64,000 nt of DNA from Pseudomonadota bacterium (GTDB lineage: Bacteria > Vulcanimicrobiota > Vulcanimicrobiia > Eremiobacterales > Eremiobacteraceae): NCBI GenBank assembly GCA_021325335.1, contig JAJPHJ010000067.1, positions 1 through 64,000 on the forward strand, read 5' to 3'. The notes below the pieces were generated by a model that made no database searches, had not been told where the DNA came from, and saw only the letters and a list, made by a program, of their open reading frames with translations. Shown piece by piece: positions 6,481 to 20,865 of the stretch. How positions within the stretch are numbered: position 1 is the stretch's first letter; each line of letters starts with the position of its first letter. The translations under genes and the position numbers were made by a program.

Positions 6481-6618
6481 GCGCGGCCTCGCGTACCTGA
6501 CTCGGTCGCGCCAATAGAGTGGTCGCCCGCGACTTACATTTTACTGGCTTCACCACCCTCGTGCCGCGAGGGTGAGCCGACAACAACGTTTGTCGAAGGA
6601 TGCCGGAGGGTCACACGC

Positions 6619-7134
6619 ATGAGTTGGGAAGCCATCAGTGCCGGAGCCGCGGTCGTCACGACGGTCGTCATAACCGCGACGGCGATCGCCGCACTCATCC
6701 AAATCCGTCAGCTCAAACTAGCCACGCAACTCGAAGGCTTTCTGGCGCTGCATCGCGAGTATGCATCGCCAGAGATGTATGCCGCGCGCGAGTATGTCGC
6801 GAACGAGTTACCCGAAAGACTGCGTGATGCGAAATACCGCGATGAGCTGGAAAAAGGTGCAGCATTCATCGCGACGCATCCTGAGCTGGTGCTTGGGAAC
6901 TTCTGGGAGAAGGTCGGCGGCCTAGTAAGCTCAGGTCTGTTGGAACCAAACCTATATCTCGAGATGGGCGCGTATCGCGCCATTGAAGCATGGGACCAAT
7001 TAACTCATGTGGTCGAACTGCGCAGAAGAAAGGAGCCGCTGCAATGGGCTGCCTTCGACCACATCGTCAAGCTCAGCCATGAGTACCTGGAGCGCCGCGG
7101 CGGCCTCCCACAAGTTGCTATTCAAGACCAATAG
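6619..7134 (+). CDS. DUF4760-like membrane-anchored protein
   Basis: N-terminal TM, family-like layout shared with 25025..25720. Confidence 0.55.
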   Translation: MSWEAISAGAAVVTTVVITATAIAALIQIRQLKLATQLEGFLALHREYASPEMYAAREYVANELPERLRDAKYRDELEKGAAFIATHPELVLGNFWEKVGGLVSSGLLEPNLYLEMGAYRAIEAWDQLTHVVELRRRKEPLQWAAFDHIVKLSHEYLERRGGLPQVAIQDQ

Positions 7135-7188: not shown

Positions 7189-7261
7189 GGGCGAATAGCT
7201 CAGCTGGTAGAGCACCTCCCTTACAAGGAGGGGGTCACAGGTTCGAGCCCTGTTTCGCCCA
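7189..7261 (+). tRNA. tRNA-Val (TAC), integration target of the element
   Basis: GGGCGAA...TTCGCCC acceptor, anticodon loop CTTACAA, T-arm ACAGGTTCGAGCCCTGT. Confidence 0.95.
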
Positions 7262-7262
7262 C
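7218..7262 (+). repeat. attL-side direct repeat (tRNA-Val 3' half)
   Basis: matches 19201-19245 at 42/45 positions. Confidence 0.85.
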
Positions 7263-7332
7263 ACGTTCAAAGCCTTGCAGTATAAGGAGTTGTGAGCACA
7301 GAGCACCTCGACTTGACGCGCGCGAATTCAGA

Positions 7333-7356
7333 TTGGTGACCGTTTTGGTGACCAAA
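7333..7356 (+). repeat. terminal repeat, candidate integrase arm site (left)
   Basis: TTGGTGACCGTTTTGGTGACCAAA; same motif at 19098-19121 (22/24); internal direct repeat of TTGGTGACC. Confidence 0.65.
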
Positions 7357-7387
7357 TCTTCGGAAAGCTGCAAATTGGGAGTCAAAA

Positions 7388-7627
7388 ATGATCGAGAAAC
7401 ATCGCCCTCGACGTGAAGAGGCACTTGCCGACAGGGCCGGGGAGAAGATTGAGTGGGCGCTCGACGCCATCGCAAAGGCAGAACTCTTGCTCAACAATGG
7501 AGACTTTGCGGAATTCAATCGCAACCTAAACCACGCGAAGACACTGCTGCGGCAAGCGTTGGTCCTCGCCGAGGAAGCGTCAAGCAAGTACAGCGAGCCT
7601 CGCTTCGCCGAGCCCACGAGCCTCTAG
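7388..7627 (+). CDS. small helical hypothetical protein
   Basis: 79 aa, coherent alpha-helical composition; overlaps integrase 3' end by 4 nt. Confidence 0.45.
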   Translation: MIEKHRPRREEALADRAGEKIEWALDAIAKAELLLNNGDFAEFNRNLNHAKTLLRQALVLAEEASSKYSEPRFAEPTSL

Positions 7628-8838
7628 GCGGGCAATGCTTTCTCGGCAAGCGCAGCGTTAAGCGCTACGTTCATGCGAGCCGCAGCATCAGACTCAAGGT
7701 CTGGGCTCATGTGCGAGTAGATGTCAAGCGTCATCCGCGTGGTCGCGTGGCCCAACCGATCGGCCACGACCTTCGGGTGAAGACCTTGCCGTAGCATCTC
7801 GGTGGCAGCGGTGTGCCGCAGTATATGGGAGCCGATGCTGCCGATGCCGGCGGCGATCGCACACTTGCGAAAGTCGCGCGAGAAGTTGTGAGGCTCCCAC
7901 GGCCCGCCGGCAAACCCCGCAAAGACCAGATCGTTGTCGACCCATGCCTCGCCCATACGCAAGCGCTCTTTGTTCTGCCACACGCGATGAGCGACCAGGG
8001 CGTCGATCGCGATCTCTGGCAGCGTCACCACCCGTGTCTTCGCGGTCTTCGGTGCCTTGAAACGCAATGCGCCTTTTGTGCTTTCGAGCGATCGGCGGAC
8101 CGCGAGTCGGCGTCGGTCCAGATCCAAATCCTTCCAGCGCAGCGCGAGCAGCTCGCCGCGTCGCAGACCAGTGGCCAAGAGCGTCAGTATCGGCGCGTAC
8201 ATTCGCGAGCTCGACGCCGCGACGAGCAGTGCTTTGAACTCGTCGGCGCATAGCGCTCTGCGCTCGTTCACTGCAAGCTTTGGGAGTTCAAGGCCGGCCG
8301 CCATGTTGCGGACGACCAGATTGTCATCGAAAGCGCTTTGGAGCGCCCCGCGCAGCACCGTATGGATCTTCCGAATTGTCGCCGACGATAGGCTGGCCCG
8401 CTTGGCTTTGTGTGGCTTCTTGCTCTTACGCGGGAGCCGGCCTTCAGCAAGCCACCGAGAATATTGGGCGCGAATGACTTGACGATCGAGCCGATCGAGC
8501 TTGAGCTTGCCAAATGCTGGAATAAGGCGCTGCTCTATTACAGCTTCGTAATCTTCGCGTGTTCCAAGCTCAAGGTCGGTCTTAGTCGCAAACCACCGAC
8601 GCAGAAAGTGTTCAACATCAAGCTGAGACGGGTTTGAACGAACACCAGCGTCGTGCTCGCGCAGTAGGGAGCGGAGCTCTTTGGCCGCGTCGCGTTCCGT
8701 ACCATAGACGGTTTTTGTGCGGCGTTCGCGCTTGCCGTCAGCGCGTCGGCCGAGCTCTACGAATAGACGCCAACAGCTTGTGTGCTTGTCGGACCCGCGG
8801 ACGCGACGAGTGCCGCGCTTGACCATGTAGCCCTTCAT
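7624..8838 (-). CDS. tyrosine recombinase / phage integrase
   Basis: TGLRRGELLALRW ... HILRHTAATEMLRQGLHPKVVADRLGHATTRMTLDIYSHM catalytic motifs (R..HxxR..H..Y). Confidence 0.97.
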   Translation of the reverse strand: MKGYMVKRGTRRVRGSDKHTSCWRLFVELGRRADGKRERRTKTVYGTERDAAKELRSLLREHDAGVRSNPSQLDVEHFLRRWFATKTDLELGTREDYEAVIEQRLIPAFGKLKLDRLDRQVIRAQYSRWLAEGRLPRKSKKPHKAKRASLSSATIRKIHTVLRGALQSAFDDNLVVRNMAAGLELPKLAVNERRALCADEFKALLVAASSSRMYAPILTLLATGLRRGELLALRWKDLDLDRRRLAVRRSLESTKGALRFKAPKTAKTRVVTLPEIAIDALVAHRVWQNKERLRMGEAWVDNDLVFAGFAGGPWEPHNFSRDFRKCAIAAGIGSIGSHILRHTAATEMLRQGLHPKVVADRLGHATTRMTLDIYSHMSPDLESDAAARMNVALNAALAEKALPA

Positions 8839-9626
8839 TGCAGTGTTCCTTTCAGGTCAGCTCGCCGTCCAAGATAGTGGCGAGGGTTTTTCATAACGTC
8901 TTCGATTCTGTTTTTTAGATGTCGCTCAAGGCCACTAGTTGGGATCCCCTTCATTTCCAGCAATGATATTGCGAGGTCGATAAGAACTCGGCTTTCGGAG
9001 AGCGTGAAATACTGCATTGCCGATACCCATATCCCCGATAAGAGGTCCGCCGGAGGACCGCTCACACGCAGTTGGCTCTTGAAATCAAACAATGACGCGA
9101 TCTCATCAGCAAAAGCCTGAAGGGGCCAAGGAACGCCTGGCGGCCAGCCACTGGATTCAGGAACGTCACGCAGTTGGGCTAAGTAGTCTTTGACTTGGAA
9201 CATGGTCAGCAGACGTGCCCGCTCACCAGCATCGAGAGGCTTAAAAAAAGTCCAAAATCGCGCAACCGTCCCAGGCTTGAAATACGCCTGGGCTAGGTCC
9301 AAGCAGTACGAGAGCTGCTTTTCCGCTTTGACGAGTTGAGCCTCGGCGAGAGCCGCCCCGCCGACAAGCTGCAGGTATCCGACCGGTATGCCAAATTTCG
9401 AAGCATAGCTTTCGATCGTCTGAGCACGAGGTGTCTTCCGTCGGAACTGACGGGCAACAGCCGATGCATTCTGCCCCAAGGCTTCCGCAACGCGTTCCTG
9501 TGACAGTCCGCGGTTATGTAAAAGCCTCGCCAATTCTCGCATGACCGCACTTGAGGCTGTTTGGCTTAGCTCGAGCAGTGCATCGTTGATGCGGCCACCC
9601 TCGGGATCTTTGCGTCTCTTTGGCAT
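8835..9626 (-). CDS. XRE/Cro-CI-type helix-turn-helix regulator
   Basis: LLHNRGLSQERVAEALGQNASAVARQFRRKTPRAQTIESYASKFG; 4-nt overlap with integrase. Confidence 0.8.
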   Translation of the reverse strand: MPKRRKDPEGGRINDALLELSQTASSAVMRELARLLHNRGLSQERVAEALGQNASAVARQFRRKTPRAQTIESYASKFGIPVGYLQLVGGAALAEAQLVKAEKQLSYCLDLAQAYFKPGTVARFWTFFKPLDAGERARLLTMFQVKDYLAQLRDVPESSGWPPGVPWPLQAFADEIASLFDFKSQLRVSGPPADLLSGIWVSAMQYFTLSESRVLIDLAISLLEMKGIPTSGLERHLKNRIEDVMKNPRHYLGRRADLKGTLQ

Positions 9627-9668
9627 AGGCTAGAAATTCTGCTCCTTCTCAGCACAATTATAGCCTAT
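9625..9668. promoter_or_regulatory. candidate operator: 8-bp inverted repeat ATAGGCTA...TAGCCTAT in the divergent XRE/Xis intergenic region
   Basis: ATAGGCTA at 9625-9632 and reverse complement TAGCCTAT at 9661-9668. Confidence 0.45.
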
Positions 9669-9706
9669 TATACTGGACTAATCAACTCCGGCCCAAAGGA
9701 GCGATT

Positions 9707-9931
9707 ATGCCCAAGTCCAGCCAGGTTCTCGACAAGCCAGGAGCTAGCGACAATCTTCGCGCCACGCTCGACATCGGCGTCGTCTCGCAGATTCTTGGGA
9801 TCTCGCGCGACAAGCTCTATGACATGGTGCGCAAGGATCAGTTCCCCGCCATCAAGTGTGGACAGCGCTACGTCGTCAGTAAGGCAGTCGTCGATCGGAT
9901 CCTGAGCGGCGAGATCGTCTTGAAGCAATAA
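9707..9931 (+). CDS. excisionase-like / MerR-type HTH_17 DNA-binding protein
   Basis: DIGVVSQILGISRDKLYDMVRKDQFPAIKCGQRYVVSKAVVDRIL. Confidence 0.85.
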   Translation: MPKSSQVLDKPGASDNLRATLDIGVVSQILGISRDKLYDMVRKDQFPAIKCGQRYVVSKAVVDRILSGEIVLKQ

Positions 9932-9934
9932 GAA

Positions 9935-9958
9935 ACCCGCTGGCGCCAACCAGCGGGT
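9935..9958 (+). terminator. strong hairpin downstream of xis-like gene
   Basis: ACCCGCTGG-cgccaa-CCAGCGGGT, no good T-tract. Confidence 0.45.
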
Positions 9959-9959
9959 C

Positions 9960-10283
9960 TTGACTAGGAGAGTTTCCGTGGGCCAGTTTTCGAGTCGCGA
10001 ACGCGGCTCCTTTCAGAGCATCCGCCAACGCAAGGCGATTGAGTCTGCGCGCTCTGTCTCAGTCGAGACACAGTTCGCTCCGGTGCGTGCCGCGCTCGAG
10101 CGGGCTCGCTTCAAGAAAGCATCCACGCCAGAAGAGCGCAAGGCGTGGCTTGAACGCCGGGCGGCTGAGATTCACGCAGAACTGCGCCGCGATCCGGAAG
10201 CCTGCGCCTTCGGCGGTTTGTGGTTCGACGCGCGGGAGCAGGCTCAACGCGAGTACGACGAGTTAGAGTCCTCGACGCAATGA
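9960..10283 (+). CDS. hypothetical protein of the element
   Basis: coding-like ORF upstream of the primase; start (TTG 9960 or GTG 9978) uncertain. Confidence 0.5.
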   Translation: MTRRVSVGQFSSRERGSFQSIRQRKAIESARSVSVETQFAPVRAALERARFKKASTPEERKAWLERRAAEIHAELRRDPEACAFGGLWFDAREQAQREYDELESSTQ

Positions 10284-12355
10284 TAGCAAGCGTCGCCGAC
10301 ACCTATGCGGCTATCACAGGCGTTCGGCAAGGGAAGCGCCGGGGCCATGAGATTGCCGTGTCATGCGTTCGCCGCGAGAACCATAGCCACGGCGATGCTA
10401 ACCCCTCGTTGCGGATCAACCCTGACAAGGACACGTGGTTCTGCGACGTATGCGCCACGGGCGGACAATCGATCGACCTCGCCGTCCATGCAGGTATCGC
10501 GAGCAACGAAGAGGCCGCCAAAGCATGGATGCGTGAGCGCGGGCTCATAACGGACACCGCTCACTGCGTTGAGCGTTACGCCTACGACGACGCCCCGGAC
10601 GACGAGCAGTTCACAAATGGGGCCGTCGATCGTATAGAGCCAGGAAGAAATGGCGAAGCCAAATCCTTCCTGCAATACCGCCGGCTGGCAAACGGTGAAC
10701 TTGAGAAAAAACTCAACGGCAAGAAGCTGCCCCTTTACCATCGCCGGGAAGTCGTCACAGCAGCCCAAGCGGGCAAGGCCATCTTCCTCGTCGAGGGTGA
10801 GCGCAAGTGTGATCGGCTACGCGCGGCCTTGCGAGAGGCGGCCAACGATTCCGCCGTTACGACGATTGCTGGCGGCACAAACGGGAAGCTCCTGCCGAAA
10901 ATGGCGGCCGATCTTTGCGGGGCGAGCAGAGTCATCGTCGTTTGTGATTCAGACGAAGTTGGTCGCAGCACCGCACAAAAGCGCGCTCAAGCGGTCGCCG
11001 ATTCTTATCCGAATATCGAAGTGCGTGTCGTCGATCTCTTTGCAGATCGGAGCGATGGGAGCGATGTACAAGACTGGCTTAATGAACTGCACACCGTTGA
11101 AGAGTTGCTGGTGCTCGTGCGAAGTGCGCGTTCGATTTCGCGTACCCAGAACGTCGAGTCTTCGCAGTCAGCGCGCTTCATCCGGGCGAGCGACCTGCTC
11201 GCCGAATCCGACGGCGACGATCTCACCTTTGTTCTTGAAGGCCTTCTCCCAACAGGAGGCACTGCGATTCTCGCCGGCCGACCCAAGGGCGGCAAATCAA
11301 CCCTTGCGCTAAATCTCGCGCTTCGGGTCGCTCGTGGCGAGTCGTTTCTAAGCCGGCAGACCGAAAAGGGGCCAGTGCTGTACCTGGCGCTCGAAGGTGC
11401 TCGCGGCGGTTGGAAATCGTCACTTCGAAAGCTCGCGATCACAGCAGACGACGATCTGTACTTTTGCATCGAGCGCGCTCCCGCCGGAGCAATCGCATGG
11501 CTGCGCAAGGCGATAGAAGAGCATCGCCCAGTGCTCGTTATCGTAGACACGGCGCAGAGGCTGCTGGGCGTCAAGCAGTCCAACGACTACTCCGAGACTT
11601 CCAATGCCTTCGATGCCGTGATTGAGCTCGCGCGGCAAAGCGGGTCCGCTTTGCTCTTGCTCCACCATTCCGGCAAGAACCGCCACGATCAAATCGTGGA
11701 TGAGATCCTCGGCAGCACCGCCTGGGCTGCAACTGTGGACACCGTGATCGTGCTCAAGCGCACCGAACATTACCGGTCGATCGCAAGCGACCAGCGCTTC
11801 GGTGAGAACCTATCCGACACCGTGCTCACGTTCGACCCCGACAGCTTGCGCGTCGATTCGACCGGTGAGAGCAAGGAGGCCGCTGAGGTCCGGCTCGCCC
11901 GGCAGGCCATCGTCGGATTCATGGATCGACTTGCCTCTGAGAAGCCAGATGAGATGCCGGACACGAGCACCATCTTGGCGGCAATCCCAGGCCGCAAGCA
12001 GCACATCTTGGCGGCCCTTGCTGCGTCCACGGATGAAGGCCAGCTCGAACGTTCCGGCAGCGGCAAAAAGGGCGACCCGTACAGGTACAAATCCAGATTC
12101 GGTTCCGCGGTTCCCAGTATATGTCAGGAACCGCAAAACCGAATCCGCGAAATGACCTCAAAGCCCGATGAAATAGAGCGCAATTCGGTTCCCGGCGTTC
12201 CGGCCTCTTCGAGCACCTTCGGAACCGCATTGGGAACCGAATTCGAGCACCCGGTGGAGAGCCCTCAGACGAGCAACGGAAAGGCGCGTGCCGGGCTGCC
12301 TTTTGCAGACCTCGCACGGGCCGACGAGCCGAGCCGCGAGCTTCACGATCTGTGA
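10280..12355 (+). CDS. replication protein: CHC2 zinc-finger primase + TOPRIM + RecA-like (AAA_25/RepA) helicase
   Basis: CVRRENHSHGDANPSLRINPDKDTWFCDVCATGGQSIDL (CHC2-type); ...VIVVCDSDEVGRSTA (TOPRIM); LAGRPKGGKSTLALNLALRVARGE (Walker A); VLVIVDTAQRLL (Walker B); LLLLHHSGKN. Track ORF starts at 10220. Confidence 0.9.
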   Translation: MIASVADTYAAITGVRQGKRRGHEIAVSCVRRENHSHGDANPSLRINPDKDTWFCDVCATGGQSIDLAVHAGIASNEEAAKAWMRERGLITDTAHCVERYAYDDAPDDEQFTNGAVDRIEPGRNGEAKSFLQYRRLANGELEKKLNGKKLPLYHRREVVTAAQAGKAIFLVEGERKCDRLRAALREAANDSAVTTIAGGTNGKLLPKMAADLCGASRVIVVCDSDEVGRSTAQKRAQAVADSYPNIEVRVVDLFADRSDGSDVQDWLNELHTVEELLVLVRSARSISRTQNVESSQSARFIRASDLLAESDGDDLTFVLEGLLPTGGTAILAGRPKGGKSTLALNLALRVARGESFLSRQTEKGPVLYLALEGARGGWKSSLRKLAITADDDLYFCIERAPAGAIAWLRKAIEEHRPVLVIVDTAQRLLGVKQSNDYSETSNAFDAVIELARQSGSALLLLHHSGKNRHDQIVDEILGSTAWAATVDTVIVLKRTEHYRSIASDQRFGENLSDTVLTFDPDSLRVDSTGESKEAAEVRLARQAIVGFMDRLASEKPDEMPDTSTILAAIPGRKQHILAALAASTDEGQLERSGSGKKGDPYRYKSRFGSAVPSICQEPQNRIREMTSKPDEIERNSVPGVPASSSTFGTALGTEFEHPVESPQTSNGKARAGLPFADLARADEPSRELHDL

Positions 12356-12636
12356 TGACCCTGTCAGGCCTCTTGGCCCGGATCCGCGAGCTCGACATCG
12401 TACTCGAGCGCAACGGTGACCTTCTAAGGGTTGACGCGCCGCCGGGAGCCGTTACGGAAGCACTGCGTGCGGAACTAATTGTCCACAAGGCTGAGATCCT
12501 GACTCTCATCGACGCCGGCGAAGAGCCTTCACTCGACGTCCTCCATCCGTACTTTGTCGACATCGCGCTGCTCTGGCGCGACCGCGCCCTCAAGAAGCGA
12601 GATCGCACACTCGACCTCCCGGGGCTATCAGCGTGA
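12352..12636 (+). CDS. TubC N-terminal docking-domain-like small protein
   Basis: LSGLLARIRELDIVLERNGDLLRVDAPPGAVTEALRAELIVHKAEILTLI resembles the TubC_N pattern; start overlaps the primase stop. Confidence 0.6.
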   Translation: MMTLSGLLARIRELDIVLERNGDLLRVDAPPGAVTEALRAELIVHKAEILTLIDAGEEPSLDVLHPYFVDIALLWRDRALKKRDRTLDLPGLSA

Positions 12637-12741
12637 AAGGCCACGCGTTGAAGCGCGAACGATGCGAACCACTCACCGGTGGGCTCATAGGGGTATATAC
12701 CCCTATCTCCGGCGTTTACAGGCAGGCTGTAGATCGACAGC

Positions 12742-12960
12742 ATGACTAGCTGCGTCGTGTGCGGCGATCCCATTTCGCAGATCCGCGAGGATCACGCGCA
12801 TGCATGCAAGCGACAACCGCTGTACTGCAGTGCCCATTGCCGCAATCTTGCGCGCACCTCTCGCTACTGGTCGCGAAAGTTGAAGACCGAGGCAAGCGAG
12901 AACGGTTCACACGTGAACGGACAGCGCAAGGAAGTCACCAATGCCGATCCCGTGGTCTGA
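12742..12960 (+). CDS. small zinc-ribbon-like protein
   Basis: CVVCGDPISQIREDHAHACKRQPLYCSAHCRNLARTSRYWSRK. Confidence 0.55.
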   Translation: MTSCVVCGDPISQIREDHAHACKRQPLYCSAHCRNLARTSRYWSRKLKTEASENGSHVNGQRKEVTNADPVV

Positions 12961-15430
12961 GATTCCGACCAAGAAGAACAGCTCGAGATTAGACCCAAGC
13001 GTTATCGCACACATCCGTGCCTCTCTCGCCCGCCAGTCGCAGACGCCGGCCGCAGCCTCTGAATCCCCGCCCGGACCCGTCATCGACCTGAGCAAGGCAA
13101 AAGCCGAGGGAAGTACGGGCGCCCCTGGGCCGATCATCGACTCTTCGATTTCATCGGACGTGCTCGGCTACATGCGCCAGCACTTGGGTGACATGGCAGG
13201 CGACACAGGCCGCGCCTTCACAAAGTTCGCGGATCTCCTAGCCAGACCGTCCGAAGCAAACCTCGCTCGTCATCGCGAGAGCTCTGGTTCCGCCGACTTG
13301 GCCGGTCAGCATCGTGGCTTTTGGCGGACGCTCGTGCATGGTGAGTCTCCCGGACAATATCAGTCGGACACGCAGCTTGCGTATAACCAGATCGCCAAGC
13401 TCTTTGGACAGGATCCGAGCAAGGAGAAGTCCTGGCAGCGCGACTGGGTAGACCCGATGCTCGTGCAAACGCTCTATGATCCCACCGTCGTCCTGGGTCG
13501 AGCCGGAGCCGGAGAAAGACTTTTCGGCACTGCCGAGCGTTACGGGTTACCGGCGGTCGTCAAGAGCTCGAACAAACTCGCGCGACTAGCCGCTGGCATG
13601 GCGAGCAAAGTAAGCCCGCAACTCGGCCAAGGCGTCGAGTCCGGGGCCCGCATCTTCGGCAACCTCGCCGCCGCGCCGTTTGAGTTCTTCGGCGTGCATG
13701 GCCCGACGAAGCTGCGCCTTGCCTCTCGACCTGGAGCACAAGGATGGAACTGGCTCGAGGACTACCAGCACGCGGCGCTTGGCGCAAAGAGCGCAGCCAA
13801 CCGCGGAGCGCAGATCGCCAACCTCATGCATCGAGCCTATGACGACGCGGTCGAGGGTCTAAGCGATCGTCAGTATCTTACGATCGTCCGGGCGATCAAC
13901 GGCGGCAAGGTGAACCTGTTACCGAGGGCGCTTCGAGGCCGAGCCCAAGCGATCGAGCAAATCTTCGACACAATGCCCGGCGTCGCCGGGACCCGCCGCT
14001 CGCAAGCGATGCTCGCGCAAAGCGGCTTCGTACTGCCAGACTGGGCCGAAGAGTTCAAGCCATCAAGAGCGCTCGGTACGCGCAAAGAGACACAGTTCCG
14101 CGAGGCCTATCACCCGGTGCCGCACTCCGAAGAAGCCGGTCTGGCATCACCGGGCAAGTTCCGCAAGCGCTATCAGATCCAAAATCCCTTGACGTATCGC
14201 AACCCCCAACTGTTGCGCCGCTCAGGCCAAGCACAGATCGTCTCGCATCCGGACCTCTACAAAGAGGCCGCGCACAAAGCGATCGAACGGTTTGGTCGAG
14301 AGTACGGCGCCGCTGTTGGCCGGCGCAATCTCAAGACGGCGTTCGGCGCGCGACGATGGGCGGATATTCCCGCGGCGATTCGAGGCACGACCGGATCGGG
14401 CGAAGGTGGCATGTTCGCATCCAAGCTCGCCCTGCCAGCCGACAAGCCTTCTCGTTTTGCCGACGTAGCGCAGAGTCTCTCGAAGTACCAGGACTGGTAC
14501 AAAGCGCCGTGGTTCTACAGCGAGTTCCCGCACCAAGCGAACATCTCAAGCCTACTCGCGAGCAGAGATCCAAAGCTCGTGCCGGCAGCGCTCAAGCTCT
14601 ACGGCCGCCTGCTCGGCATGGCGCCAGCTCAACGCGAGCGCGAACTCGCTGACGTACTCGGGGCGGGAGCGACGTCGCTGCGCAGCGTCGAGCGCCAGAC
14701 GCCAGAAATAGAAGTGGCCATGCGCTCGGGGAATAAGACGGCGCGCAATGTCGGCAAGTGGTATGCCGGCGTTTCACATCGCTTGTGGACCTTCGACGAC
14801 GCGGCCAAGGCCTTGCTTTACCGCAAGCTCATCAGACAGGGCATGAAGCCGCACGAAGCGGCCTATGAGGTCAACGCGAGCCTCGTCGACTACTCGACGC
14901 TCTCACCTGCAGCCCAGACAGCGCGGTCGTTCCTTGTACCGTTTGCGAGCTGGCAATCAAAGTTCCGCCCTGCGCTTGCGCGCAATGTCTTGCAGCACCC
15001 GGAAAGCGCCGCCTTTCTCTCTCGCGTATCGCCCGCGCTCACCGGCGGCGAACAGTCCGCGGCCGGCAAGAAGTATCGGTCGTACGGCCCACTCGCCACG
15101 CTGGCGCGAGAGCTATCACTTCCCGGGGGAGGCTATTCCGCAGCGCGATCGGCAATGGGTCCACTTGCGCGCACGGCTGCGAGCCTAACGCACCTGCGTC
15201 CTGAGAGCTACCGCGGCAAGAACTATTTCACATACGGACAGAGCCCGCTGCTGTACGGGGCGGAAAACATTCCGCCCGGAGTTGGCCCCGCACTCAGCCT
15301 CTTCGGCGTCGGTCCTTTTTCCAAGTACAACGCCAAGCAAAGCGCGGGGCAGTGGCTGAAGCACCTCCCCGCCGACGTGCTCAAGAATCTGCTTGAGTCG
15401 TGGACGCGCACGTATCAAGTGGGCAACTAA
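12941..15430 (+). CDS. large phage-type polyvalent/internal protein, LPD38-like C-terminal region
   Basis: FDDAAKALLYRKLIRQGMKPHEAAYEVNASLVDYSTLSPAAQTARSFLVPFASWQSKFRPALARNVLQHPE is like the phage 'DYxxL...R.fiPF..w..kn.p' pattern; 829 aa. Confidence 0.55.
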   Translation: MPIPWSEIPTKKNSSRLDPSVIAHIRASLARQSQTPAAASESPPGPVIDLSKAKAEGSTGAPGPIIDSSISSDVLGYMRQHLGDMAGDTGRAFTKFADLLARPSEANLARHRESSGSADLAGQHRGFWRTLVHGESPGQYQSDTQLAYNQIAKLFGQDPSKEKSWQRDWVDPMLVQTLYDPTVVLGRAGAGERLFGTAERYGLPAVVKSSNKLARLAAGMASKVSPQLGQGVESGARIFGNLAAAPFEFFGVHGPTKLRLASRPGAQGWNWLEDYQHAALGAKSAANRGAQIANLMHRAYDDAVEGLSDRQYLTIVRAINGGKVNLLPRALRGRAQAIEQIFDTMPGVAGTRRSQAMLAQSGFVLPDWAEEFKPSRALGTRKETQFREAYHPVPHSEEAGLASPGKFRKRYQIQNPLTYRNPQLLRRSGQAQIVSHPDLYKEAAHKAIERFGREYGAAVGRRNLKTAFGARRWADIPAAIRGTTGSGEGGMFASKLALPADKPSRFADVAQSLSKYQDWYKAPWFYSEFPHQANISSLLASRDPKLVPAALKLYGRLLGMAPAQRERELADVLGAGATSLRSVERQTPEIEVAMRSGNKTARNVGKWYAGVSHRLWTFDDAAKALLYRKLIRQGMKPHEAAYEVNASLVDYSTLSPAAQTARSFLVPFASWQSKFRPALARNVLQHPESAAFLSRVSPALTGGEQSAAGKKYRSYGPLATLARELSLPGGGYSAARSAMGPLARTAASLTHLRPESYRGKNYFTYGQSPLLYGAENIPPGVGPALSLFGVGPFSKYNAKQSAGQWLKHLPADVLKNLLESWTRTYQVGN

Positions 15431-15439
15431 GGTCGACTG

Positions 15440-15787
15440 TCATTTCTTCGCTTCGTTCTCGTACCAGCGATATTGCTTAGCAGCTCGCTCGAGCGCCGAC
15501 CGAATCGCCGGCAGCGGATCACCCAGCGGATCTCTTTGCACGGCAACCGCGATCTGGAGTCCGAGGCCGACACCAACGTCGAAGCCTGCGCTCTGCCCGC
15601 TAAGGCGTATACGATCATCGTCTGCAAACATGAGGGCCCAGGCGTTGTTGCCGACGCCTAATTCGGGATCGACATCGTCTTTGAGTTTCCTAAGCCAGTA
15701 GCAACCTTGACATTCAATGGGCGACTGTGAGAAAAGCTCCGCGTACTCTGCTTGTGATTGATCCCAATTCCTGAGCGCTTGTTCCAT
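15440..15787 (-). CDS. hypothetical protein
   Basis: MEQALRNWDQSQAEYAELFSQSPIECQGCYWLRKLKDD...; likely internal start in track ORF 15440..15874, with GGAGCTCC upstream. Confidence 0.45.
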   Translation of the reverse strand: MEQALRNWDQSQAEYAELFSQSPIECQGCYWLRKLKDDVDPELGVGNNAWALMFADDDRIRLSGQSAGFDVGVGLGLQIAVAVQRDPLGDPLPAIRSALERAAKQYRWYENEAKK

Positions 15788-16098
15788 GGTGGAGCTCCTT
15801 TGTTGACGCCTAGCAGGCGCGAGCGAACGCGCATCCCGACGGTTTCGACGCTGGCGTCTGAAGATGCCTATCAAGGCGACGCGTGCGATAGGTCGGGGAA
15901 ACCTGTCGCAGCTTGATGGTGATTGAGTTGTCCAAGTGTCTTGCTAATGCGCAAACAATTTGGGCTCATCGCATTGAATGCTCGACGCCAAAAGAAATTT
16001 TTCTTGTTGCTAATGGACGCCGCGTGTCTGTGCGCTGGAGATGCGCGGCGGACATCGAAGGACACATCAAGACCGCGGAACACCCAAAGGAGCGACCG

Positions 16099-16524
16099 AT
16101 GAGAAGAGTCTTCCTTGTCGTCGTTATAACGATATGTCTTTTGACTCCATATGCCGCACGCGCGGATTCTACTCAACTGGACGGGCTGTGGTGGCACGGA
16201 CTTTCCTACGATCGCCGGCTACTCGCCATTCATGCCATGATAGAGGCTTACACAGACGGATACATCATGGCGTGGGTCGGCGACCACCCGTCAAACATCC
16301 CGAAGACGGGGCCGGTTCCGAGCCCAACGCCGCTGCGCTACGCGCCGAAAGATTGGCCCGCGTTCAGCAAGCCGTGGTCGGTCTACGTCGCGCAAATCGA
16401 TAGTTTCTATGCGACGTATCCGAACGCGAACGACGTTGAGGTGGAGCAACTACTGGGCTGCTTGCAGGACAACGCGATCGTCACATGTGACAAGCTTGGA
16501 ACGTTAGCACCCACGCCAAGATAG
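16099..16524 (+). CDS. secreted hypothetical protein
   Basis: MRRVFLVVVITICLLTPYAARADSTQLDG... signal peptide; inside track ORF 15913..16524. Confidence 0.6.
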   Translation: MRRVFLVVVITICLLTPYAARADSTQLDGLWWHGLSYDRRLLAIHAMIEAYTDGYIMAWVGDHPSNIPKTGPVPSPTPLRYAPKDWPAFSKPWSVYVAQIDSFYATYPNANDVEVEQLLGCLQDNAIVTCDKLGTLAPTPR

Positions 16525-16705
16525 AGCGGTAGCGCCCTCTGGGCGAACCATCTGGCCAGGCGGCCAGAATGTCCCGAGACAATGGACGAATGGTTGAACG
16601 GCTGTGGTATACTGGTGTTGGCGGACAAGCGCGGGGCAATCGTAGGCTGGCTTCACGGCCAGCAGGCTTGCAAAAGCTGGGATCCTACGACCCGGGGTTC
16701 GCTTT

Positions 16706-17497
16706 TTATTTTGCCGCTAAGCCCGACAGCCATCGTTCAGCGACGCCGCAATTGCTCAACGGGCCAACGTAGGCTTTCAAGCCAATTCCCCAGATTTTTC
16801 CATCCTTCGTGCAGAGCTTATCAATTAGTGGCTCAAAAAGCCGAGGAAAGACTCTTCCGAAACGGTTTGGCTCAATGGCATTGCCGAATGCACCTATGCA
16901 TATGTCGGCTAACTGCAGGTACCGAAGCTTGGCTGCGGCAAGCGCTTTGAATGGGCCAGGGTTTATGAGCGACGTCTTAAGTGCGTACCTGATGTAATTT
17001 GCAAGATAACCGTAGCTCATTTTTGCCCTAGACGAGAAGACCGGATACAAATAGAAACCACCACTCAAAGCCTGCATGTTGGCGCGCTCCAACACAAGTC
17101 GCGTAATATAGTTGTAAAGTCTAGGCGGATGAAGTGCGTTGCGCATACCGGCCTTACACGCGAACGAAATTATGAGTTTGAAATCTATGTCAACAATGCG
17201 TGATATAACGTAGTCCTTTTTCTCGTGATCCAACTTCCTCCAGTGTATTTCTGTGTTGAGGGGATCCTTGAAAAGCTGAGACGCGATTTCATGCATAATC
17301 TTTAGGGCCGCAGTGCGTTTGGTATCCTCGATTAAGACTCCGCCGATTATAAAATATGGCGATGGCCCCGAACGGTTGGATGGGCGATCACGATAGAGCA
17401 ATGCGTTTGTATGAGGGCTCGGCATACCTTCGTCGCCGGCTTCATCGATGTAGATATAGAAGGCCTTAGCCGGAGCTGGTATAGAGGCACTCATCAA
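16706..17497 (-). CDS. DUF3800 domain protein (predicted RNase H-like fold)
   Basis: FYIYIDEAGDEG...YFIIGGVLIEDTKR...; signature YIDEAGDEG. Confidence 0.75.
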   Translation of the reverse strand: MMSASIPAPAKAFYIYIDEAGDEGMPSPHTNALLYRDRPSNRSGPSPYFIIGGVLIEDTKRTAALKIMHEIASQLFKDPLNTEIHWRKLDHEKKDYVISRIVDIDFKLIISFACKAGMRNALHPPRLYNYITRLVLERANMQALSGGFYLYPVFSSRAKMSYGYLANYIRYALKTSLINPGPFKALAAAKLRYLQLADICIGAFGNAIEPNRFGRVFPRLFEPLIDKLCTKDGKIWGIGLKAYVGPLSNCGVAERWLSGLAAK

Positions 17498-17659
17498 TTA
17501 TCGCCTCGATTCGCTCCGCGCTGGAAGCTCAAAAAAATTTTCCGAGAAATTTGCAGCCCTTACTACTACCTCGGGCGCGCCCTCCGGGGGGCTCGCCCAT
17601 TCCCCACCCCATTTGTCCCTGCGCCAGTATTGGTTGACCTGGGAGATCCATTGTTTCAT
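17498..17659 (-). CDS. possible small ORF coupled to DUF3800
   Basis: MKQWISQVNQYWRRDKWGGEWASPPEGAPEVVVRAANFSENFFELPARSESRR* ends directly at the DUF3800 start; internal Met of track ORF 17498..17863. Confidence 0.4.
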   Translation of the reverse strand: MKQWISQVNQYWRRDKWGGEWASPPEGAPEVVVRAANFSENFFELPARSESRR

Positions 17660-17822
17660 CGCGTGTTGGCGTGAGTTGCTAATGTCTCTGCTAATATCTC
17701 GTTCGTTTCGTCGCAACTGAGCGTAACAACGACAGCGATGGACGCCTAAGGGCGGTGCGCACTGGTCGGGGGAAGCTTTGCTAGGAGAGCAAGTGCTGTG
17801 TGTCAGCGGGCCTTGCGCCCGC

Positions 17823-18071
17823 TTACTGAGACCGACAAAGCTTTTCCTGGTCCGCCTTTGCAACTTCGAGGCCTCGACGTAGCCCGTAAAGGAACACTTT
17901 GCTGACTCCGGTGGCTTCAGCTATTGAGCCGATCGTATAGCCCTGAAGGATCAGGTCAGCGAGCTTTTGATTGTCGTCGGGCGACAGCTTGAAGCAGCGG
18001 TGATCTTTCTTGCTGAGTTTGCTCTCGTCGATTTCCATTGCCTCATACTTATCGGGTACATAGAACCGCAC
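17823..18071 (-). CDS. Hin-type helix-turn-helix small protein
   Basis: LSPDDNQKLADLILQGYTIGSIAEATGVSKVFLYGLRRG. Confidence 0.65.
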   Translation of the reverse strand: MRFYVPDKYEAMEIDESKLSKKDHRCFKLSPDDNQKLADLILQGYTIGSIAEATGVSKVFLYGLRRGLEVAKADQEKLCRSQ

Positions 18072-18096
18072 CCTGCAGACCGGCCGAGGCGATGTC

Positions 18097-19053
18097 CTAT
18101 GGGAGCTCTTTACGTGGAGGAAGCTCCGCCGTCAAATCAAGCGGGCTTTGTTGCGATTGAAGGAGCACGGTTCGCCCGACGATATCGCTGACATAACAGC
18201 GGACGAATGGATCGATAGGCGGGTTTAGTTGCGCGATGGCGGGCACGGTATCGCGAGCGAACTCTACCCATTCGCTTAGAAACATAATCATCCACGTTGG
18301 CACCGGGCGATACTTCCGAGCCGCATTGCGGTGCTTGTTGAGAATTGCGATCGCGGTCCCGGCTGTGTCCGATGTGTCAACGGCCTCAGCGCCGCCACGT
18401 ATCCCAATGTGTGGGAACGCGGAAGGCCGACACCCAAAGTGCGCGCCTCTTTTGTGAAGCAACGGGTACGCGGGTGGAAAAGCCGCGAAGTCTGGATCGT
18501 CGTCATCGGCGATCTGGAAGTGAGCTCGACTTCTAATGAACCGCTGCAACTCGGCATCAATCGACTTGCGTTCGCTCTTTGTGATGCGAGGCGCCGTGAG
18601 ATCGCTGGCAAGGTCCACCCATAAGCTAACCGCCCCCAGCGCCGCGCTGAACGAAGGGTCGGCATCTCGCCGATCAAGTAGGGCAACCTCGAGGTTGGAG
18701 ATCTCCATTTCGCGCGCCTTAATGATCTGGCCGATGCCCTCAGCAACCTCGAGCCCCGTGTGCTCGGGTAAGAAAGCGTCAAGGTCAGGACTTTCGAGCT
18801 TGGCGCCCTCGGCGCTCCTTGAGATAAGTGGCACGCGCTGATAACCAAGCCGGGCGAGCGTATATGCCGCCGATTGGATCTCTGCGCGTCGGTCGCTCAG
18901 CCGCGGATCGTTGCGCGAGCCGCTCACGCTGTCGAACGGTATGGCGCCGAGACGTTCACCGTCCACTGTGAATTCCGCAATCCTACGGTAGATTCGCTCG
19001 TCGTTGCCAGCGCCGTATATGCCGCGGGCCAGAAAGTCATCGATCGTCATCAA
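18097..19053 (-). CDS. hypothetical protein, element cargo
   Basis: 318-aa ORF with coherent composition, no family recognised. Confidence 0.6.
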   Translation of the reverse strand: MMTIDDFLARGIYGAGNDERIYRRIAEFTVDGERLGAIPFDSVSGSRNDPRLSDRRAEIQSAAYTLARLGYQRVPLISRSAEGAKLESPDLDAFLPEHTGLEVAEGIGQIIKAREMEISNLEVALLDRRDADPSFSAALGAVSLWVDLASDLTAPRITKSERKSIDAELQRFIRSRAHFQIADDDDPDFAAFPPAYPLLHKRGAHFGCRPSAFPHIGIRGGAEAVDTSDTAGTAIAILNKHRNAARKYRPVPTWMIMFLSEWVEFARDTVPAIAQLNPPIDPFVRCYVSDIVGRTVLLQSQQSPLDLTAELPPRKELP

Positions 19054-19097
19054 GATTTACTCGGCCAAGACAGCCGCCGGCAACCCGCGTCTGCATT

Positions 19098-19121
19098 TTG
19101 GTGACCATTTTGGTGACCAAG
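19098..19121 (+). repeat. terminal repeat, candidate integrase arm site (right)
   Basis: TTGGTGACCATTTTGGTGACCAAG; 22/24 match to 7333-7356. Confidence 0.65.
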
Positions 19122-19200
19122 CAGAACCTATCGAGCGCGACAGGCACAAACTTAGCCCTATAAAACCTAGTGTGTCAGACGATATCCGCCGACCTTTACG

Positions 19201-19245
19201 CCCTTACAAGGAGCGGGTCACGGGTTCGAGCCCTGCTTCGCCCAC
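19201..19245 (+). repeat. attR-side direct repeat (tRNA-Val 3' half remnant)
   Basis: 42/45 identical to 7218-7262. Confidence 0.85.
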
Positions 19246-19311: not shown

Positions 19312-20865
19312 CTACGGCTGGAACGCCAAGCCTATCGGCGTAACCAGCCCAGTATTGCTTCCGCTGACTGTTCGTAGGGGTGCCTGATTGCCGCTCGCGC
19401 CTTTGGCGTAGACGGTGATCGTGTTGGCGCCAGAGTTCGCAACGTAGAGTTTGCCCGTCGCGTCAAAGGCAACCGTGGTGGGTCCTTGGAGTTGGGTGCT
19501 AGGTCCCCCGAGCGTACGCACCGGTGCCACGTTACCACTCGCGCCAGGGGAATACACGGTGATGGTGTTCAGCGCTGCGTTGCACACGTAGATGAAGCCA
19601 GACCCGTCTATGACGACGCACTCCGGGTCTGAGATGCCGGTGTTCGACCCTCCCAAAACCGAGCTCGGCGCCACGTTTCCAGAACTTCCACCAGCGAAAG
19701 TCAAAATAGACGCCGTGCCGGAGTTGGAGACAAGCAGATTGCCTGAGGAGTCGAATGTAAGCGCGGTGGGTCCAAAGAGGGTGGTGTTGGATCCTTCGAT
19801 CGTGACGATCGGCGCAACGTTACCCGAAGCGCCCGGCGCGAAAGCCAGGATTGCCTGCGCACCGGTAGAGTTAAAACAGGCGCCGCAATTTGCTGCGTAC
19901 AGTGTGCCTGACTTGTCAAAGTCCAATCCGTCGACGCCTGTGAGCCCGGTGTTCGAGCCCGTGATAGTGCGTGCCGGGGAGGCGTTTCCGTTCGCACTCG
20001 GGCCGTAGATGGTAATCGAATGCGCCTCGGACGCGCCGGGAGCGTTCGCAACGTACAGATTTCCTGAACTGTCCGTGATAATTCTTCGGGGGAAGCCGAG
20101 ACCTGTGTTCGAGCCGGCAATCGATCGAGACGGCGTCACGTTTCCGCTCGCGCTCAACGGGTATGCGGTCAGCGCGTTCGAGTTTGCGTCGGTGACGAAG
20201 TACAGCATCGTTGGGCTCGGCCTGGGAGACGGCGACGGCGAGGGAGACGGCGAGGGAGACGGCGCGGGGGATGGGCTTCCCCCGGTGCACGTGTAGGGCA
20301 TGGCGTAGTAGGTGACGTTCGCAGTCATCTCGATGGACGTGCTGCTTGGCGAAAAGGTCACTTTATTGCCCGTCAGCGTCAAGTCGCCCACATGCTTCCA
20401 GCCCGCTGCCGGATCGTAGTAGCCCATTTTCACCGGCAAGCTGGTATACGTGTAACCTTTCGGCAGCGTCAGGGCGAAGCCGGGGATGCCTTGCAAGTTC
20501 ACGGTTTTCGACGACGTCAGCGTGAAGAAAAGAAACGGTTGCGCGACGTGCATGTCGGGGTTGAGCGGGGGCATGTTCGCGGGAGCGGAGCTGGAGATTT
20601 CCAGGTTCAAACTCGTCCCGGCCGGCGCGTTGTTCGCGGTGAGCGTGATGCTTTCGGCAAAACGCGCGACAGCGGGTAATGCCACGGCAGATCCGGCGGA
20701 GCTAAACGGGACCGCCGCCTTCGCAAAAGTAGCAGGGCCAGAGGGTGCAGGCCCGCTGCCTGTATTTGAGACGCTTCCGCCGGTACAAGCGCCAAGCGCC
20801 AGAATCCCAAAAACTATAGCTGCAGCTGCTTCGAGCTTCAGCGCGTTTTTTCGGAGAAACAACAT
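19312..20865 (-). CDS. lipoprotein with NHL/beta-propeller repeats
   Basis: lipobox LGAC; repeated GSNTGL..P.gla.D.sGnLYVaN.g.n.I.vya.gasGN.aP..ti. Confidence 0.85.
   Translation of the reverse strand: MLFLRKNALKLEAAAAIVFGILALGACTGGSVSNTGSGPAPSGPATFAKAAVPFSSAGSAVALPAVARFAESITLTANNAPAGTSLNLEISSSAPANMPPLNPDMHVAQPFLFFTLTSSKTVNLQGIPGFALTLPKGYTYTSLPVKMGYYDPAAGWKHVGDLTLTGNKVTFSPSSTSIEMTANVTYYAMPYTCTGGSPSPAPSPSPSPSPSPSPRPSPTMLYFVTDANSNALTAYPLSASGNVTPSRSIAGSNTGLGFPRRIITDSSGNLYVANAPGASEAHSITIYGPSANGNASPARTITGSNTGLTGVDGLDFDKSGTLYAANCGACFNSTGAQAILAFAPGASGNVAPIVTIEGSNTTLFGPTALTFDSSGNLLVSNSGTASILTFAGGSSGNVAPSSVLGGSNTGISDPECVVIDGSGFIYVCNAALNTITVYSPGASGNVAPVRTLGGPSTQLQGPTTVAFDATGKLYVANSGANTITVYAKGASGNQAPLRTVSGSNTGLVTPIGLAFQP

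Follow-up and report, generated by a model that had tools for sequence, protein, structure and literature searches.

The points at which known phage satellites act are the size of the capsid, the choice of terminase and the expression of phage genes. In phage-inducible chromosomal islands (PICIs), integrase and repressor genes are read in one direction, excisionase and primase genes in the other, and late genes come next (PMC6092414). Gram-negative PICIs have captured late genes of their helpers downstream of the replication zone (PMC10111431), phage-inducible chromosomal minimalist islands (PICMIs) lie downstream of fis and encode a DUF3987/DUF5906 primase (PMC10803314), and EcCIMP1, a 19.96-kb PICI of E. 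coli mobilised by the P22-like phage Kapi1, has, downstream of the primase gene, genes similar to those of DNA-transfer (ejection) and DUF2824 proteins (PMC11773190). Here we describe a 12.06-kb element integrated at tRNA-Val in a window of 64,000 nt, the whole stretch of DNA that was analysed (GCA_021325335.1, contig JAJPHJ010000067.1, positions 1-64,000), from a metagenome-assembled genome (MAG; 94% complete) of a Pseudomonadota bacterium assigned by GTDB to the Eremiobacteraceae. With a probability of roughly 0.6, we read it as a PICI-like satellite of a short-tailed phage resembling those in genomes G149 and G150, which would add an ejection-type virion protein to particles. A literature search pairing 'phage satellite' with 'Eremiobacterota' found no paper, so with this element the range of PICI-like satellites probably widens to include an uncultured phylum.

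The element is bounded on the left by an intact tRNA-Val(TAC) gene and on the right by a displaced copy of the 3' 45 bp of this gene (Table 1). The two copies agree at 42 of 45 positions (blastn E 9e-14), which excludes chance. Inside both ends lies a second repeat pair (35 nt, 83% identity), each copy of which contains TTGGTGACC twice, 12 bp apart. This was the only tandem 8-mer pair (offset 11-13) recurring within the window, and 0.085 occurrences of a looser form of the motif were expected per shuffled 64 kb. The inner tandem repeats are best read as putative arm-type integrase sites. Three stretches of the element were examined for iterons and none was convincing, and a search for terminal overlaps indicating circular forms of contigs found none.

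The integrase gene, transcribed toward the tRNA, overlaps that of an XRE-type regulator, and across a divergent gap with an inverted repeat a rightward run begins with an HTH_17/AlpA-Xis-like gene and proceeds through a primase-helicase and a TubC_N-domain protein to an 829-aa protein encoded directly downstream of the replication genes. This run is compact, with mostly overlapping starts and no gap over 110 bp. Scans of the element proteins against Pfam, PHROGs, PADLOC and NCBIfam returned broad families only; the CHC2 (1.4e-3) and TOPRIM (1.6e-3) Pfam matches of the primase-helicase both lie below cut-off. The same scans recognised no terminase, portal, capsid/head, tail-fibre or lysis family and no relaxase or type IV secretion system (T4SS) family among the element proteins. 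A first-pass annotation made from the letters of the window had proposed a 12-kb element bounded by tRNA-Val and a 45-bp duplication of its 3' half, with integrase, XRE, Xis, TubC-like and fused CHC2-TOPRIM-RecA-like replication genes and with no recognisable terminase, portal, capsid, relaxase or T4SS gene. The boundaries and all of these genes proved real, 'RecA-like' being correct in the sense of AAA_25/DnaB-like, and the profile scans agreed on the absences, detecting no full phage module and no integrative and conjugative element module. The arm-site pair, a DUF3800-VII RNA and a second instance of the element type in genome G027, described below, go beyond that annotation.

The layout reproduces the conserved PICI order of integrase and regulator, divergent xis, primase and late zone. 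Like gram-positive PICIs and Staphylococcus aureus pathogenicity islands (SaPIs; PMC6092414), the element carries its cargo at the far end and falls within their size range of about 12-15 kb; its duplicated tRNA-Val attachment (att) sequence may correspond to the specific att site, unused by prophages, of PICIs. No head, portal, terminase, tail-fibre or lysis gene was recognised in it, but the 829-aa protein is a member of a family of phage late proteins, and captured late genes may be present in published PICIs too (PMC10111431). It differs from them in having neither capsid-remodelling genes nor a clear small terminase subunit (TerS), in the type of its replication protein, and in its host, a member of an uncultured Eremiobacterota lineage. 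With gram-negative PICIs (PMC10111431) it shares AlpA/HTH_17, integrase, a replication zone and a late zone, but no Bro-type domain or other Bro-network gene was recognised, the integrase aims outward, and the late zone is a single protein that is not of lambda type. Integrase, HTH_17/AlpA and primase without capsid genes also constitute the minimal set of PICMIs (PMC10803314), from which the element differs by its tRNA-Val site and its CHC2-TOPRIM-AAA_25 primase. It has neither the own capsid and packaging genes that define capsid-forming PICIs (cf-PICIs) nor the terminase, portal, head, tail and lysis genes that define a prophage. Because it departs from the definitions of gram-negative PICIs and PICMIs, the element is not classed as a proven PICI, its anatomy being read from genes alone.

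The best tested precedent, as judged from its published description, is EcCIMP1 (PMC11773190). Both are tRNA-integrated and encode an integrase, an AlpA-type regulator and a primase, with no identifiable capsid-morphogenesis or terminase gene. The helper of EcCIMP1 is a short-tailed P22-like phage, and its DNA-transfer-like genes follow the primase, the place held here by one large ejection-type gene that has no sequence similarity to those of Kapi1. The present element also differs in size (12 kb), in phylum, in its CHC2-TOPRIM-AAA_25 replication protein, XRE repressor and outward integrase, and in being known from genes alone.

None of the libraries Pfam, PHROGs, NCBIfam and PADLOC gave a match to the 829-aa protein, and there was nothing at a useful level in phage GenBank records and no match among PDB sequences. 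Searching the phylum and the contigs of IMG/VR and GTDB with a profile yielded a family of five members only: three in tailed phages (G149, G150 and G081), one in an element of G027 and the present one. The G149 phage encodes a large terminase subunit (TerL; phrog_2), a portal (phrog_156) and a major head protein (phrog_9953), the G150 phage contig carries portal and head genes, and G081 has one contig (C13) with a GH25-type endolysin and another (C57) with portal and head genes close to those of G149. The description of the 829-aa protein as phage-type in the first-pass annotation thus holds through its relatives in phage contigs only, since no family library recognises the protein itself.

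P22-like phages carry the DNA-ejection genes gp7/gp20/gp16 at a particular place among their late genes, and at the corresponding place Kapi1 has proteins of 225, 448 and 723 aa, the middle one annotated 'DNA transfer protein'. As in Kapi1, the relatives of the 829-aa protein in G149 (194/325/866 aa) and G150 (254/677/1018 aa) are the last of three consecutive late open reading frames (ORFs). The 318-, 325- and 677-aa partner proteins of G081, G149 and G150 are mutually homologous. We infer from gene position in these two phages alone that the 829-aa protein is a candidate ejection-type protein; with no sequence similarity to the Kapi1 proteins, the label is a positional one. The best reading of the late zone would then be that it has shrunk to one ejection-type gene.

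A second instance was found in G027, a genome of another genus. Its contig C113 encodes an o144-like protein, an HTH_17 protein, a 372-aa protein, an 876-aa relative of the 829-aa protein and a 157-aa protein, and it ends with two copies of TTGCCCAC 12 bp apart, forming an arm pair, and with a 3' fragment of tRNA-Leu(TAA). Contig C182 of the same genome starts from an intact tRNA-Leu(TAA), followed by the same TTGCCCAC arm pair, an integrase, a regulator, an HTH_17 gene and a primase-like gene, and is plausibly the left end of the C113 element, the join being deduced rather than assembled. The contig gap leaves room for doubt about this second instance. No homology was detectable between the 372-aa protein preceding the 876-aa gene and the 318/325/677-aa phage partners. 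With C113, the ejection-type gene is seen in two tRNA-bounded elements, which belong to different genera and use different att sites; together with the echo in EcCIMP1, this recurrence suggests that satellites of short-tailed phages may generally interact with their helpers at the ejection step. In the family tree the 829- and 876-aa proteins split from the three phage proteins with 100/100 support, which does not prove a satellite clade because the tree holds only five unrooted sequences.

Relatives of the module were sought in 149 genomes of the phylum Eremiobacterota, and the divergent pair of integrase-regulator and HTH_17-primase genes recurs among them. Three islands were bounded: one of 9.0 kb in G116 at tRNA-Lys, with a 44-bp repeat and a GTGACC arm pair at both ends; one of 6.1 kb in G056 at tRNA-Glu, with a 24-bp repeat; and one of 12.1 kb in G107 (locus L054, contig C59, 4140-16255), bounded by 21 bp of tRNA-Ser-like sequence. 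ORF reading and partial Pfam scans recognised no particle genes in these three. The G107 island has the same integrase-primase-TubC module as the present element and an SLFN/AlbA_2 and SIR2-like pair that is possibly defence cargo; a TubC_N gene probably also follows the primase in G090. The module stands beside a terminase gene in G106 (Terminase_6N at cut-off) and beside terminase-like genes in G128, so it is common to phages and small islands. A further candidate, G052:C41 (L058), was rejected as a bounded example, as it ends at the contig end and yields no boundary.

In the mechanism that we propose, the XRE regulator would repress the rightward operon until relieved by a helper phage. Binding of the integrase and the HTH_17/AlpA-like protein to the paired arm sites would lead to excision of the element, the primase-helicase would replicate the circle, and the helper terminase would package it into helper particles. 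The 829-aa protein would be the satellite's counterpart of the last DNA-ejection (internal virion) protein that short-tailed phages encode; incorporated into helper particles, it might either deliver satellite DNA or spoil helper ejection. The DUF3800 protein with its RNA would be cargo that may protect the host. A more far-reaching proposal, that a satellite lineage redirects short-tailed phages at delivery through its own DNA-ejection protein and not through capsid or terminase, the 829- and 876-aa proteins forming a long-separated satellite lineage apart from the phage versions, seems to us doubtful at present.

Several observations weigh against the satellite reading or its ejection component. 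The present element is the one complete element known with an 829-type gene, that of G027 being split over contigs. In G081 the order is 318, 127 and 962 aa, and the intervening 127-aa gene means that the triplet is not universal. The 829-aa profile showed no similarity to the gp16-like and gp20-like proteins of Kapi1 (hhalign probability <1%), so that homology of the gp16 type was not found, and the AlphaFold model of the protein is poor (five sequences; predicted local distance difference test score, pLDDT, 42) and unfit for a fold search. No clear packaging-redirection gene was found in the element, which has only an 82-aa HTH protein with weak similarity to the HTH of small terminase subunits, not significant alone. 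The integrase direction is opposite to that of gram-negative PICIs, whose integrase aims inward (PMC10111431). Finally, the helper-type major head gene (phrog_9953) was not found in the host MAG.

A prophage remnant, in which a full phage at tRNA-Val has shed the genes for packaging, head, tail and lysis and left the 829-aa gene behind, would accommodate the terminase neighbours of the module in G106 and G128, the phage origin of the late genes and the decayed right-hand att fragment. It would not predict the compact run from Xis to the 829-aa gene, the absence from the element of fragments of any other phage gene, the retention of both arm-site pairs, or the relative of the 829-aa gene in a tRNA-bounded element of another genus. 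If the 3/45 (6.7%) difference between the att copies is taken as neutral divergence, about six stops are expected in an unselected 829-codon ORF, which stayed intact in 0.3% of simulations; at a low-end divergence of 1.4%, it stayed intact in 24%. This argument for selection on the ORF is supportive, short of decisive, and we consider a remnant unlikely.

The first-pass annotation had offered 'a satellite or IME' (integrative and mobilizable element) in a poorly sampled lineage. The satellite half gained from the PICI-type layout, the bounded and compact structure, the recurring islands and the late-gene family; the IME half found no support. Such an IME would be moved by conjugation through an unrecognised oriT with the relaxase of a helper, its phage-type gene being accidental cargo. 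The size and the int-xis-primase content would suit it, and oriT-only IMEs exist (PMC11389934), but no relaxase or T4SS family was seen, and a phage late-type gene in the operon after the primase, again present in G027, is unexpected for an IME, which makes this account improbable. Less probable still is an anti-phage island in which the 829-aa protein is a decoy poisoning virion assembly or ejection and forms a defence locus together with DUF3800 and its RNA. The pairing of DUF3800 with a DUF3800-VII RNA, the weak PADLOC match and the fully supported split of the 829/876-aa proteins from the phage proteins, expected for a changed role, speak for it, but a pure defence island would have no need of a complete integration and replication module. 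Phage satellites commonly interfere with phages, so what favours a decoy is also compatible with a PICI-like satellite.

To place the integration site in context, native tRNA-Val(TAC) genes were located by DNA search across 61 relatives. The intact copy in the window is 100% identical to the native gene of G017, 96-99% identical to those of six other family relatives and 92% identical to that of G027; it thus has the native form, and it is the right-hand fragment that changed, by three substitutions. Uninterrupted native genes occur in relatives: among the matches listed, the full gene stands alone in seven genomes (G015, G016, G017, G021, G022, G026 and G027), and a lone 3' fragment occurs, within the family, only in G000 and G023. 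In G022 the gene directly after tRNA-Val is an NHL gene on the minus strand, with 40% identity to the right-flank gene of the window (19312-20865), an arrangement suggestive of empty-site synteny, although NHL genes are frequent in these genomes. The tRNA-Met/Glu pair at 104-265 of the window is part of the tRNA-Val cluster, and Met, Glu and Val are adjacent in G027. The left flank was tried and rejected, because the 79%-identical gene of G019 adjoins tRNA-Pro, not tRNA-Val; tRNA-Val itself was therefore used for the comparison. In G023 (L123, contig C39, 3469-3515) the lone 3' fragment adjoins an NHL gene, and the site is probably occupied there by another, unassembled element.

The cargo zone lies at the right of the element. 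Its DUF3800-VII RNA is the sole copy above cut-off in the 149 genomes, and the convergent gene encodes a DUF3800 protein, a family predicted to adopt an RNase H fold (PMC10910872); a structured RNA of unknown function is thus tied to its DUF3800 gene on one mobile island. The predicted structure of o144 (pLDDT 71) did not match any fold significantly when compared with PDB and BFVD.

Table 1. Features of the tRNA-Val element, in window coordinates.
Feature	Position	Strand	Evidence or relatives
Intact tRNA-Val (TAC), left attachment site	7189-7262	+	ARAGORN; Rfam 73 bits
Left arm-site-like tandem motif, TTGGTGACC-N3-TTGGTGACC	7321-7355 (pair 7333-7353)	.	Repeat search
79-aa ORF, possibly spurious, lying between att and integrase; no family	7388-7627	+	ORF list
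Tyrosine integrase, 404 aa	7624-8838	-	Pfam PF00589 9e-28; phrog_1 2.9e-66
XRE-type HTH regulator, 263 aa, overlapping integrase by 4 bp; candidate master repressor	8835-9626	-	PF01381 4e-5
Divergent regulatory gap with inverted repeat 9625-9635/9658-9668	9627-9706	.	Repeat search
HTH_17/AlpA-Xis-like excisionase or activator, 74 aa	9707-9931	+	PF12728 3e-9; PF05930 1.4e-3; phrog_66 2.7e-5
107-aa ORF; 4-bp overlap with primase start	9960-10283	+	No Pfam/PHROGs family
CHC2-TOPRIM-AAA_25 primase-helicase (longest ORF 10220-12355)	10280-12355	+	AAA_25 4.6e-34; phrog_239 9.5e-25
TubC_N-domain small protein, 94 aa	12352-12636	+	PF18563 3.4e-12
72-aa Cys-rich, probably zinc-binding protein; overlaps start of 829-aa ORF	12742-12960	+	ORF list
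829-aa relative of podovirus-type late (virion) protein	12941-15430	+	Relatives in G149, G150, G081, G027
o144, ~115-aa helical protein, motif DPxGDPxPAIR	15440-15787	-	Related genes in two tRNA-bounded G027 elements
Small secreted protein of a host-type family; cargo	16099-16524	+	Relatives in G023 and G052
DUF3800-VII structured RNA (RF02967)	16620-16708	+	78.3 bits vs gathering score 36.2, full length
263-aa DUF3800 protein, encoded convergently to the RNA; cargo gene, candidate for a defence or toxin-type role	16706-17497	-	PF12686 2.8e-8; PADLOC PDC-M04A 2.3e-4
82-aa HTH protein	17823-18071	-	phrog_4102 E 0.002
318-aa accessory protein	18097-19053	-	Relative search; relatives dispersed over 7 further genomes of the phylum
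Right arm-site-like tandem motif, TTGGTGACC pair	19086-19120 (pair 19098-19118)	.	Repeat search
Displaced tRNA-Val 3' fragment, right attachment site	19201-19245	+	Repeat of 7218-7262

The closest relatives of the integrase (41-45% identity) are found at L140 (G017:C19, 10377-11540), L060 and L061; they adjoin other tRNAs (tRNA-Lys CTT, tRNA-Val GAC) and lack a primase module, so this integrase passes from one type of element to another. At L055 (G058:C148, 1841-2857) a ClpP/SDH-type serine protease gene adjoins the integrase-primase module of another element.

Another contig of G027, C109, has 77% DNA identity to C113 over the o144-HTH_17 segment and 86% over a segment at the right end; it lacks the 876-type gene and shows an apparent tRNA-Thr(TGT) 3' fragment followed by host-type genes. 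The right half of this element, with the o144 and HTH_17 genes and the tRNA-Thr 3' fragment, lies at 75-1732 and about 6560-6640 of this contig (L138); a 204-aa gene upstream gives the impression of being terminase-small-like, with no PHROG match. A segment of ~420 bp common to two G027 elements at 86% identity (L008 5492-5913 and L138 5988-6408) recurs in part at a third locus of this genome (L144, 4976-5102); it may be a small repeat or the conserved end of an element.

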